Part shown: positions 56,285 to 59,029 of the stretch, piece after piece | How positions within the stretch are numbered: the stretch's first letter is position 1 | Layout: every line of letters starts with the position of its first letter | NCBI RefSeq assembly: GCF_020694005.1 | Contig: NZ_CP073013.1 | Coordinates: 2,056,578 to 2,120,577, forward strand | Source of the DNA: Marinomonas profundi | GTDB lineage: Bacteria > Pseudomonadota > Gammaproteobacteria > Pseudomonadales > Marinomonadaceae | Length of the DNA: 64,000 bases | Reading direction: 5' to 3' | Notes under the pieces: model-generated | The model's input: the letters and a program-made list of their open reading frames with translations, nothing else | What the model was told of the DNA's origin: nothing | The model's database searches: none | Made by a program: the position numbers and the translations under genes

Positions 56285-56581
56285 TCAAGTGAGTTTGTCT
56301 ATCGAGCGATACAAAGCGGCCACTTCTTCACGCTGTAACCCTGTAATACGAGAGAGTCGGCCAATGCTTGAGGAGACTTGTACCGACTCTGTACCTTCTT
56401 CTTTTTCCTTGTCTTGTTCAGTACGGTTAAATTGAGCATGAGCGGACAGTAGCTGTTTTCCTTGATCGGACAATAACACCAGGTTTTGTTGTCTTTCCGG
56501 TTGTGAGCGCGCGCCTGTTTCTGCTTGTGCTGATAGCATAGGCAAATACGAATGATTGCTTGATACAGATGAAATAGACAC
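56285..56581 (-). CDS. Small hypothetical protein, 98 residues
   Basis: I do not recognise a family. The product begins MSISSVSSNHSYLPMLSAQA, is Ser/Gln/Glu-rich and likely disordered over residues 1-65, and ends in a charged helix (SSSIGRLSRITGLQREEVAA, then LYRSIDKLT). There is no signal peptide or membrane helix. I chose the GTG at 56581 because AAGG lies 7 bases upstream; another GTG at 56588-56590 overlaps that site. It is divergent from the tubulin-like gene. The C-terminal helix could be an interaction motif. Confidence 0.6.
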   Translation of the reverse strand: MSISSVSSNHSYLPMLSAQAETGARSQPERQQNLVLLSDQGKQLLSAHAQFNRTEQDKEKEEGTESVQVSSSIGRLSRITGLQREEVAALYRSIDKLT

Positions 56582-56938
56582 AACAGGCACCTTAATTCAT
56601 TCGGGCATTTTTAAAAGATATTTTAAAGAATAGTATAAAAAGTGAACATTAGGCGTTTTGATTGCGCTATTTTGTTTGCGGCTCGCTTAGGTTCTGACTA
56701 CACAATGGGGGATTGAGTGTTCATCGCGGCTTGGGTTTTATTGGGCTTATACTGATTTTCTCTTTTCATTCGCCATATTTAGTGTCATTGCTATATTAAG
56801 GATGATATTGTTTGCACATTATTGTCGATAATATGACTAACAAAACTGTGCATTTTACAGATGAAGTGCTGGCGTTACGCTAAGCTGACACGCTAAATTT
56901 TGTCTGTTCTACGTTATTTGCTTCAAAAAGGGCGCCGC
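56582..56938. other. Divergent region before the tubulin-like gene
   Basis: No gene is seen in these 357 bases. They lie between two divergent genes, so promoters for both are expected, but I could not identify a convincing -35/-10 pair. An AAGGG ribosome site lies 7 bases before the ATG at 56939. Confidence 0.5.
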
Positions 56939-58966
56939 ATGAGTCAAGAAAATCTCCCAATAGAACATCTGTATTTCACTGAGAGCAATCTAGAGCAAAT
57001 CTTAGAAAATTTAGATGTGGTCCGAAACCGAATTCACCCACAATTAAGTGATGAAGAAGGCGTAAATGAACAGGTATTTCCCTCTGTTTGCCTGATTGGT
57101 TTGGGACGCTGTGGTTCCAATATCGCATTAGATGTCGCATCGTTGGTATACGATGCACGAACAAACTACATGCGAGAAGTGGAAAACCAAGAAATATTGG
57201 ACAGTGAGCGTGAATTTCGACCTATGCGTTGGATCCGTAAACATCTGCCGCTGGAAGGAAAAGATGGCTTTAAGCCAGTTTTCCTCATTGAACCTATTGT
57301 GCTACTAGGTGATTTGGATAAAGACATCGAAGGGCGAATTCGTTTTTCGAATCAAGAAGGCCGCACGAAATTTCTAGAAGAATACACCAAACTGCAAATA
57401 ATGGACTTGTCTGAAGTGCATGCGGGTGGGGCGGGTAATGCGCCGATTTTAGGGCAGTACTTAGCAAAAATTATTCTTAATAAAGATGCCACGACCTTTC
57501 GTAATGAAAGCTGGAAGCAGATGCACTCCTATTTGGTGGATTCCTGCGGTATCAAAGCCAACCAATCACGCTTGTACTTTTACATCTTCAGTGCGGGTGG
57601 TGGCACCGGGTCTGGTATGGCGTCTGAGTTCGGTCTTGCGCAACAATTCTCTTACTTAAGCAAGACTTTTGACTATCGTTCTGATCAGAGCAAAATGGCC
57701 GACAAGCGTCATAGTTTTGTGTTTGAACCTATCTTTACATCGGGCATTTGTATCCTTCCTAATATTTCTGGGAAAAATGTTGAAATTTCCGAGGCCTTGC
57801 ACATTAACGCAGGGCGTTTGTTAACCAAATACATTTCAGAAGAGTGGAATTTCTCTTACAACGAAGAGCGTGAAGAAGACGAAGTCCCCGCGGATGTTAT
57901 GGAACGAATTCGTCCGTGGAACTCGATGATGCTGATCTCTAATGACATCATGCGTTACGCCGAGGAAGAAGACGGTGGTGATGCGGACAATATCGATGTT
58001 AACACCATGGAAAAATACGCTAACCAGTATATTTCCCAGCAAATTTTCAACATCTTAACCGCTCAAGCCGTGACCACCGACTATGACGAAGATTACTTTC
58101 GTCGTGCCGGTATCGATATTGCTGAAACCATTCGTTTGGACGCCAACGACTTATTTATGAGTTTAGCGGGTCCTGTTGCCGTGGCGTATGCCGAAAGTGT
58201 TGTGAACGAAGGAACACGTCAAGACAGCGTTGATATTGATGACCTGTTCTGCCGCTCGATTGAGCTACCGCATTTTAATGACGACACATCGGCTATTGAA
58301 GGGGTAAGTGTATTGCCGGTTGAATCAGAGCGATACCGCGAAGCCATTAAGGATTATCGCAAAAGTGGCTATGATGCGAGCACCTTGAACCACCTGCACT
58401 TCTTTAAAAACTGTTCGTCTATCGTGTCGATTATTTCTTTGCCACGGGACTATAAGTTATCCTTTACTGCATTGAATCGTCTAAAAATGCACCTCAACCG
58501 TTTGTGCCCTAATACCACATTGAAGCGTTATGCGCTGGTGATTGGTGCTTCGGCCAACTTGTCATTGACGACGCTAATTGCCAAAAGCCCATGTTTGAGT
58601 GACGACTTCCTAACCTTGATGGTGGCTTACATGAAGCGTTGTTTCGCCCGTGATGATTACCGATACACGGATGAAATAGACAATGCGATTATTAAGATGA
58701 TCCAAGACGATGATTTTGATGAGGCGTTGGTGGATAAGTTCTTTACGACTTATGAAAACCCCGCCAAAATCTTGGACACAAACTGGTATGCCATTAAGCC
58801 CATGTACGAGAAAAAATACCGTGAGTTGATTGATAACAACCAACGTTTTGTCTCGATCAATGACATTCGCTTAGACATCAACAATGTCAAAAATGCCATC
58901 AAGTATCTTCGCGAAATTTACCGTCATCGCATTAGTAAAACCAACGTACTGACGCTTAATGGTTAA
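56939..58966 (+). CDS. Tubulin/FtsZ-like GTPase family protein
   Basis: This 675-residue protein has the loop order of the tubulin/FtsZ superfamily. T1-like GLGRCGSN (54-61) follows a hydrophobic strand; HAGGAGN (161-167) matches T3; AGGGTGSG (219-226) matches the T4 signature GGGTG[S/T]G; NQYISQQIFN (362-371) could be T6; and LDANDL (400-405) aligns with the FtsZ T7 loop, keeping both acidic residues (D401, D404) with R399 in place of the asparagine. About 270 residues follow, predicted mostly helical, unlike FtsZ's short tail. No membrane helix or signal peptide. It stands alone with a terminator after it, and no plasmid or phage genes are near. It likely belongs to the Tubulin_2-like bacterial group of unknown function. 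Confidence 0.75.
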   Translation: MSQENLPIEHLYFTESNLEQILENLDVVRNRIHPQLSDEEGVNEQVFPSVCLIGLGRCGSNIALDVASLVYDARTNYMREVENQEILDSEREFRPMRWIRKHLPLEGKDGFKPVFLIEPIVLLGDLDKDIEGRIRFSNQEGRTKFLEEYTKLQIMDLSEVHAGGAGNAPILGQYLAKIILNKDATTFRNESWKQMHSYLVDSCGIKANQSRLYFYIFSAGGGTGSGMASEFGLAQQFSYLSKTFDYRSDQSKMADKRHSFVFEPIFTSGICILPNISGKNVEISEALHINAGRLLTKYISEEWNFSYNEEREEDEVPADVMERIRPWNSMMLISNDIMRYAEEEDGGDADNIDVNTMEKYANQYISQQIFNILTAQAVTTDYDEDYFRRAGIDIAETIRLDANDLFMSLAGPVAVAYAESVVNEGTRQDSVDIDDLFCRSIELPHFNDDTSAIEGVSVLPVESERYREAIKDYRKSGYDASTLNHLHFFKNCSSIVSIISLPRDYKLSFTALNRLKMHLNRLCPNTTLKRYALVIGASANLSLTTLIAKSPCLSDDFLTLMVAYMKRCFARDDYRYTDEIDNAIIKMIQDDDFDEALVDKFFTTYENPAKILDTNWYAIKPMYEKKYRELIDNNQRFVSINDIRLDINNVKNAIKYLREIYRHRISKTNVLTLNG

Positions 58967-58998: not shown

Positions 58999-59029
58999 AA
59001 AAAGGCCGCCTAATTAGGTGGCCTTTTTT
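58999..59029. terminator. Terminator between tubulin-like gene and mrp operon
   Basis: AAAAAGGCCGCCT (58999-59011) pairs with AGGTGGCCTTTTTT (59016-59029) with one G-T pair, loop AATT. It serves converging transcripts. Confidence 0.88.

Follow-up and report, generated by a model that had tools for sequence, protein, structure and literature searches.

A solitary gene for a probable FtsZl2-type protein of the tubulin superfamily in Marinomonas

The locus and its single gene

The window (the whole stretch of 64,000 nucleotides of Marinomonas profundi DNA that was analysed) contains, at positions 56939-58966 of the forward strand, an intact open reading frame that encodes 675 amino acids, with an ATG start preceded by an SD-like AAAAAGGG and a stop codon ending at 58966. 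The open frame, the SD-like sequence and the invariant motifs described below mark it as a single gene for what would be an FtsZl2-type protein of the tubulin superfamily. The gene is chromosomal, lying in a single-contig genome of 3.65 Mb. Upstream of it are ppx and, between ppx and the FtsZl2-type gene, an unannotated frame of 101 amino acids (56285-56590, reverse strand) that is without a Pfam match; downstream, on the opposite strand, is an Mrp/Mnh antiporter operon. The preliminary description had reported that no plasmid, phage or division gene stood next to the gene, and among these window neighbours we likewise recognised none. Relatives of the 101-amino-acid frame, with 37-59% identity, were found adjoining ppx at other sites as well (L007, L013, L132 and L139).

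Directly 3' of the FtsZl2-type gene lies an intrinsic-terminator-like hairpin (58999-59028, forward strand) with 13 pairs and a T-rich tail, which suggests that the transcript ends there; terminator-like sites in the region numbered 5, compared with 2.8 expected. Because of this hairpin, and of the antiporter operon that follows on the opposite strand, the gene looks like a one-gene transcript. A promoter scan turned up 2 sites where 5.3 were expected, no more than by chance, and a search of Rfam gave no match. A stretch around TAAGGATGATATTG (56781-56813, forward strand), which was detected by eye in five of the six other Marinomonas upstream regions compared and was absent in that of L013, may be a regulatory site.

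Sequence motifs and kinship with tubulin and FtsZ

The T1-, T3-, T4- and T7-type motifs that had been noticed in the protein at the outset were found exactly where they had been placed and in the right order. All on the forward strand, they comprise a T1-type loop, GLGRCGSN (amino acids 54-61; 57098-57121), a T3-type loop, HAGGAGN (161-167; 57419-57439), a T4 signature, AGGGTGSG (219-226; 57593-57616), and a T7-type LDANDL (400-405; 58136-58153), the last assigned by order and motif only; a T6-type ISNDI (333-337; 57935-57949) stands between the T4 and T7 elements. These assignments were compared with FtsZ by a block scan, in which gapless profile blocks were tried at every offset along an FtsZ profile. 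For T1, T4 and T6 the blocks ranked first at FtsZ's own T1, T4 and T6 (VPNERL), and the T3 block ranked FtsZ T3 (GLGAGANPEVG) second, after FtsZ T4. The H7 and T7 blocks did not rank their FtsZ counterparts first, and the C-terminal strands were unsupported by the scan, save for a weak first rank of the S9 block.

In an alignment of 47 family members, the others of which are 64-91% identical to the window protein, the residues G54, G56-N61, H161-G164, G166, N167, G220-G226, D401 and D404 are invariant. Seven scanned elements occur in order in all of 123 distinct family proteins, the window's own copy included, a set that was picked by the T1 pattern and so contains T1 by construction; a stricter T4 pattern with the following Met was present in 121 of the 123. 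The pattern GGGTG[ST]G has a single occurrence in the six-frame translation of the window, and this falls in the FtsZl2-type gene. Compared with the gene of L002, there are 35, 8 and 290 differences at codon positions 1, 2 and 3, respectively, and such mostly third-position differences between species are as expected under purifying selection. Variation was seen at the N-terminus: 20 of the 21 N-termini compared (for example those of L022, L026, L029, L036, L037, L050 and L059) had a variable tail of about 20-80 residues before a conserved YFTE stretch, the exception being that of Agarivorans (L016), and neither the window protein nor its relatives in Marinomonas have the tail.

Against Pfam, the window protein matched Tubulin_2 (PF13809) over amino acids 163-233, spanning T3 to T4, with an E-value of 0.02 and 14.6 bits; the cut-off is 27 bits, and the PF13809 profile search that the preliminary description had proposed as a check thus stayed below the curated threshold. 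The match to Tubulin (PF00091) had an E-value of 0.16 and 12.7 bits, compared with a gathering cut-off of 33 bits, and other weak matches stood alongside. Across the family, PF00091 was matched at E<=1 by all 47 members (best 8.5e-4) and PF13809 by 46 of the 47 (best 4.3e-3). An unrelated family, DUF6562 (PF20200), was also weakly matched, by 25 of the 47 members (best E 4.1e-4), and in part of the family its scores equal those of Tubulin. When the own genome was searched with PF13809 at E<=0.001 the FtsZl2-type gene was missed, NCBIfam and PHROGs gave one weak match each (E 0.088 and 0.16, respectively), and a PDB sequence search with the single protein gave no match. Four ribosomal L23 entries that appeared in a profile search of the PDB, with E-values of 0.83-2.3, were taken to be chance matches.

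Direct comparison with 31 FtsZ proteins by hhalign gave an E-value, as for a single comparison, of 0.0096 and a probability of 4.3%, with T3-T4 aligned and T1 in a second alignment. For amino acids 40-420 the score against FtsZ was 27.9, the maximum in 30 column shuffles being 23.9, and the scores of four segments starting at amino acid 330 or later were not above those of column shuffles. In pairwise comparison with the 31 FtsZ proteins, the score of amino acids 150-240 was reached by 1% of 200 shuffles and that of amino acids 40-240 by 5.5% of 200 (p 0.055). Smith-Waterman comparisons with shuffles placed amino acids 325-415 (T6 to T7), 400-552, 484-552 and 552-675 at chance level against FtsZ. 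From these sequence comparisons we conclude that the GTPase half is probably tubulin-like; for the C-terminal half they gave no clear support of the kind.

The 270 amino acids that follow T7 matched no Pfam family over its cut-off and had no significant match in the PDB. A full-length AlphaFold model made with 47 relatives was unusable (mean pLDDT 42), which we attribute to how alike these relatives are (64-91% identical to the window protein). A model of the C-terminal part (amino acids 394-675) reached modest confidence, with a pLDDT of 62.6 and a pTM of 0.49; it predicts a helical extension over roughly amino acids 555-675 (58601-58963, forward strand), and none of the helices in the model is longer than 16 residues. 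With this model, a Foldseek search of the PDB gave 740 matches at E<=10 and none at E<=0.001, and the best VIA-align Z score was 5.2, for a chain of a spliceosome complex over 66 residues. Tubulin and FtsZ were absent among the matches listed (the best 50 each for Foldseek and VIA-align), which is no evidence against a tubulin fold. A reading by eye of the region from T7 to about amino acid 550 as the FtsZ C-terminal domain, with a strand-helix-strand unit at 494-535, was set aside, as it was unsupported by hhalign, Smith-Waterman comparison and block scans.

Distribution, neighbourhoods and signs of transfer

A pattern search of bacterial and archaeal genome contigs, which finds close relatives only, returned 119 relatives. 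The best 80 of the 119 have 63-97% identity and are all proteobacterial by title, and among the matches listed the closest named relatives of the window protein are from Marinomonas species. Within its own family the gene was present in 29 of 48 genomes, all of one genus (29 of 47 near-complete ones), the own genome included. In a class-wide sample it was found in 2 of 369 genomes and in a phylum-wide sample in 5 of 299, the own genome being counted in both. A second concentration of the gene was in a genus of the same order (g273, taken to be Pseudomonas), where 99 of 149 genomes carry it and the proteins are about 70% identical to that of the window; two of these 99 carriers (G767 and G759) have split or partial copies. 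The gene starts at 1.28-1.62 Mb in 13 of the 26 single-contig g273 genomes that carry it, and it is presumably near these positions that a locus number of 1302, as in the name PFL_1302, would fall. Searches of 72,556 plasmid and 50,697 phage records found no relative; a pattern scan of viral contigs gave three candidate stretches, none of which was confirmed, and a DNA-level search of E. coli genomes gave no match.

Canonical FtsZ was found in the own genome and in each of 18 genomes examined, 17 of them with the FtsZl2-type gene, so that this gene is an addition to FtsZ. For each of the 16 non-Marinomonas genomes among these, the FtsZl2-type protein showed a higher identity to that of the window (64-88%) than was seen between the FtsZ proteins (51-67%), three of the FtsZ matches in this comparison covering the conserved part only; examples are 70% compared with 61% in G752 of g273, and 64% compared with 51% in Psychromonas hadalis. 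Within the genus, the one carrier compared (G035) gave values slightly in the opposite direction (79%, with 81% for FtsZ). The result for the 16 genomes suggests tight constraint on the FtsZl2-type protein, although values of this kind can be raised by transfer too.

The search for partner genes covered 79 of 80 loci; the gene of the remaining one, L052, fell outside the cluster. At these loci no gene family up to four genes away was common to more than four genus labels, counts that are rough, as three MAGs (L041, L048 and L062) were counted with Rheinheimera, and that were made with naive ORF calls; the genus labels that share neighbour families are mostly close kin. The survey of neighbours across relatives thus gave no broadly recurring partner. 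Within Marinomonas and within g273 the position of the gene is stable. In the named Marinomonas loci, ppx lies within four genes of it in 16 of 17 and mnhG in 14 of 17, and in g273 what by reading is a branched-chain amino-acid transporter operon is nearby in 8 of 10 loci.

Several further neighbours were recorded. A gene of about 1020 amino acids (for example L004:12298-15360, forward strand), by reading a fusion of an ammonium transporter with PAS, GGDEF and EAL domains, is no more than four genes away from the FtsZl2-type gene in 12 of the 17 named Marinomonas loci; the window site has no room for it. A gene with a GGDEF/EAL motif was present in 6 of 10 g273 loci, in five of them two genes away and at the same position. 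A link to c-di-GMP was considered and rejected: GGDEF- or EAL-type motifs occurred in 6 of 594 other genes at 35 loci, which was taken as background. In Vibrio gelatinilyticus a gene of the ppx cluster (L069:8733-10250, reverse strand) is about 6 kb from the FtsZl2-type gene, which may be chance. In the Alteromonadaceae MAG NORP200, two contigs (L074 and L075) have a near-identical gene order around the gene, and these perhaps represent mixed strains or a duplicated assembly.

Eight ppx sites were fetched from relatives that have no FtsZl2-type gene, and three of them (L132, L134 and L139) proved to be clean empty sites. In L132, ppx, a 101-amino-acid frame and mnhG stand in a row, and in L134 and L139 an Amt-GGDEF-EAL gene lies between ppx and mnhG; of the others, at L133 the contig runs out, and at L135-L138 the remaining neighbours are all missing. 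The absence of the gene from 18 of 47 near-complete family genomes, together with the intact empty site in three of the eight fetched, suggests that it is dispensable.

Trees of a quick kind grouped the Marinomonas sequences with those of Agarivorans, Aliagarivorans and two Vibrio, and placed Paraglaciecola marina inside Marinomonas. With groups that had been chosen after the first tree, a single clade of Marinomonas without Paraglaciecola was rejected (p-AU 1.5e-9), as was a single clade of Marinomonas, g273, Marinobacter and Halomonadaceae (p-AU 1.5e-4); for the second tree the long-branch rows L055 and L080 were left out, and 8 of the 99 g273 members were in. The FtsZl2-type protein of P. 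marina is 88% identical to that of the window, compared with 61% for FtsZ, a clear sign of horizontal transfer.

Possible role and comparison with known systems

Taken as a whole, the evidence makes it somewhat probable that this FtsZl2 orthologue is an accessory, GTP-dependent filament protein of the tubulin family that acts outside division and plasmid partition, the filaments themselves being predicted from its motifs. Most likely it would serve a non-essential function in organising or shaping the cell. The case for GTP binding comes from the invariant loops, while D401 and D404, likewise invariant in the T7-type motif, point to hydrolysis between adjoining subunits and thus to filaments; with R399 in the place of the FtsZ Asn, and with the T7 region unsupported in the comparisons with FtsZ, hydrolysis coupled to the polymer is not assured. 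In such a mechanism the T1-T4 and T6 loops would hold the GTP, and subunits would assemble head to tail, with D401 and D404 of one completing the GTPase site of the next; the product would be a dynamic filament distinct from the Z ring. The C-terminal helical part (after about amino acid 555) and, in many genera, the N-terminal tail might then bind the target. We propose that this target would be one present in most gammaproteobacteria, be it the membrane, the envelope or a core protein, and the gene could therefore work alone in changing genome positions. For the FtsZl2-type protein we infer GTP binding, polymerisation and target binding, and with them the label 'cytoskeletal'. A bolder version, which we regard as doubtful, is that the gene alone suffices for a GTP-driven cytoskeleton in aquatic gammaproteobacteria and in Pseudomonas-like bacteria, one that would be independent of division, under FtsZ-like constraint, mobile, and directed at a universal target through its C-terminal part.

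The altered T7-type motif, with R399 and without a first rank in the block scan, would also suit a non-polymerising nucleotide switch of the tubulin superfamily, one in which GTP is bound and the signal passes through the C-terminal part, and the large family-specific C-terminal region could, judging from the model of modest confidence, block the filament interface. However, all 47 aligned members keep D401 and D404, and a switch of this type is unlikely in our view. Less likely again is a modulator of the divisome that would co-assemble with FtsZ: FtsZ was present in each of the 18 genomes checked, but no division gene adjoins the FtsZl2-type gene in the window, and its absence from 18 of 47 near-complete family genomes indicates that division does not need it. 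Absence from so many close relatives suggests dispensability and hence that this is not the division protein.

Patchy occurrence, horizontal movement and a solitary setting might be expected of a one-gene defence factor that passes between genomes, but this we consider very improbable, as PADLOC gave no match, the neighbour families are by reading metabolic, transport and other household genes, the place of the gene is stable within Marinomonas and g273, and its divergence appears low for a defence gene. Hardly credible is a DNA segregator of the TubZ/PhuZ plasmid or phage type that has become chromosomal, which the superfamily motifs and the signs of transfer would fit, because the absence of relatives from plasmid and phage records and from the viral-contig pattern scan, together with that of a recognised partner (no recognised TubR adjoins, and the 101-amino-acid frame at 56285, compared with Pfam only, gave no match), argues against DNA partition, and only short two-copy repeats, not an array, were found around the gene.

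If the accessory protein favoured here does form filaments, the bacteria that carry it would have a further dynamic cytoskeletal system. The value of this tubulin-superfamily family, which is strongly conserved between genera, occurs in 99 of 149 g273 species and seems to be without a reported function, lies in its unsolved function, its strong conservation and its easy genetic access rather than in novelty of kind.

With FtsZ (PF00091) the window protein shares the GTP-loop motifs in order, and the T1, T4 and T6 blocks fit best at the same elements. It is far longer, as had been noticed from the start (675 amino acids, the genome's canonical FtsZ having about 410), it scores below the PF00091 cut-off, it has R399 where FtsZ has the T7 Asn, and its gene lies outside any division cluster in a genome with an FtsZ of its own. 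TubZ, PhuZ and CetZ belong to the tubulin superfamily as well; in contrast to TubZ and PhuZ, no plasmid or phage setting was found for the window gene and its relatives in the collections searched. Similarity to FtsZl1/Tubulin_2 (PF13809) is a weak one over T3-T4 and under the profile cut-off, and no vWA, GTPase or kinase gene stands beside the window gene. A survey from 2023 set divergent Tubulin_2 proteins aside, and the term FtsZl is absent from its main text (PMC9871819).

The closest description is that of FtsZl2 (FtsZ-like 2), for which Makarova and Koonin in 2010 gave PFL_1302 as the type (PMC2875224). They described T1, T4, T6 and T7 motifs in the nucleotide domain, a C-terminal region of about 300 amino acids without known relatives, no coiled coil after the FtsZ domain, a restriction to Proteobacteria beside canonical FtsZ, and no conserved associated genes, and they predicted filaments (PMC2875224). 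In the legend to their Figure 1 a Marinomonas sequence stands between those of Chromobacterium and P. fluorescens (PMC2875224), and it apparently belongs to the FtsZl2 block. In a literature search for FtsZl2 and PFL_1302 among papers open without subscription, no experiment on the family was found beyond the 2010 description; one hit, PMC7327170, was discarded, the matching text being the mutant name FtsZL272E. The window protein shares with FtsZl2 the T1, T4, T6 and T7-type motifs (T7 by motif and order only), a long C-terminal region without known relatives (here 270 amino acids after T7), a proteobacterial spread, canonical FtsZ alongside and the lack of associated genes, and in the features compared there was no difference. 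The preliminary description of a chromosomal, solitary protein of the tubulin/FtsZ superfamily with an unknown role can therefore stand, but its kind is not a new one: judged from its sequence, with PFL_1302 matched by description only, the protein fits FtsZl2 (PMC2875224). What the present analysis adds to the 2010 description is the relatives and their distribution, the changing neighbours, the signs of transfer, the empty sites and an identity between genomes above that of FtsZ.
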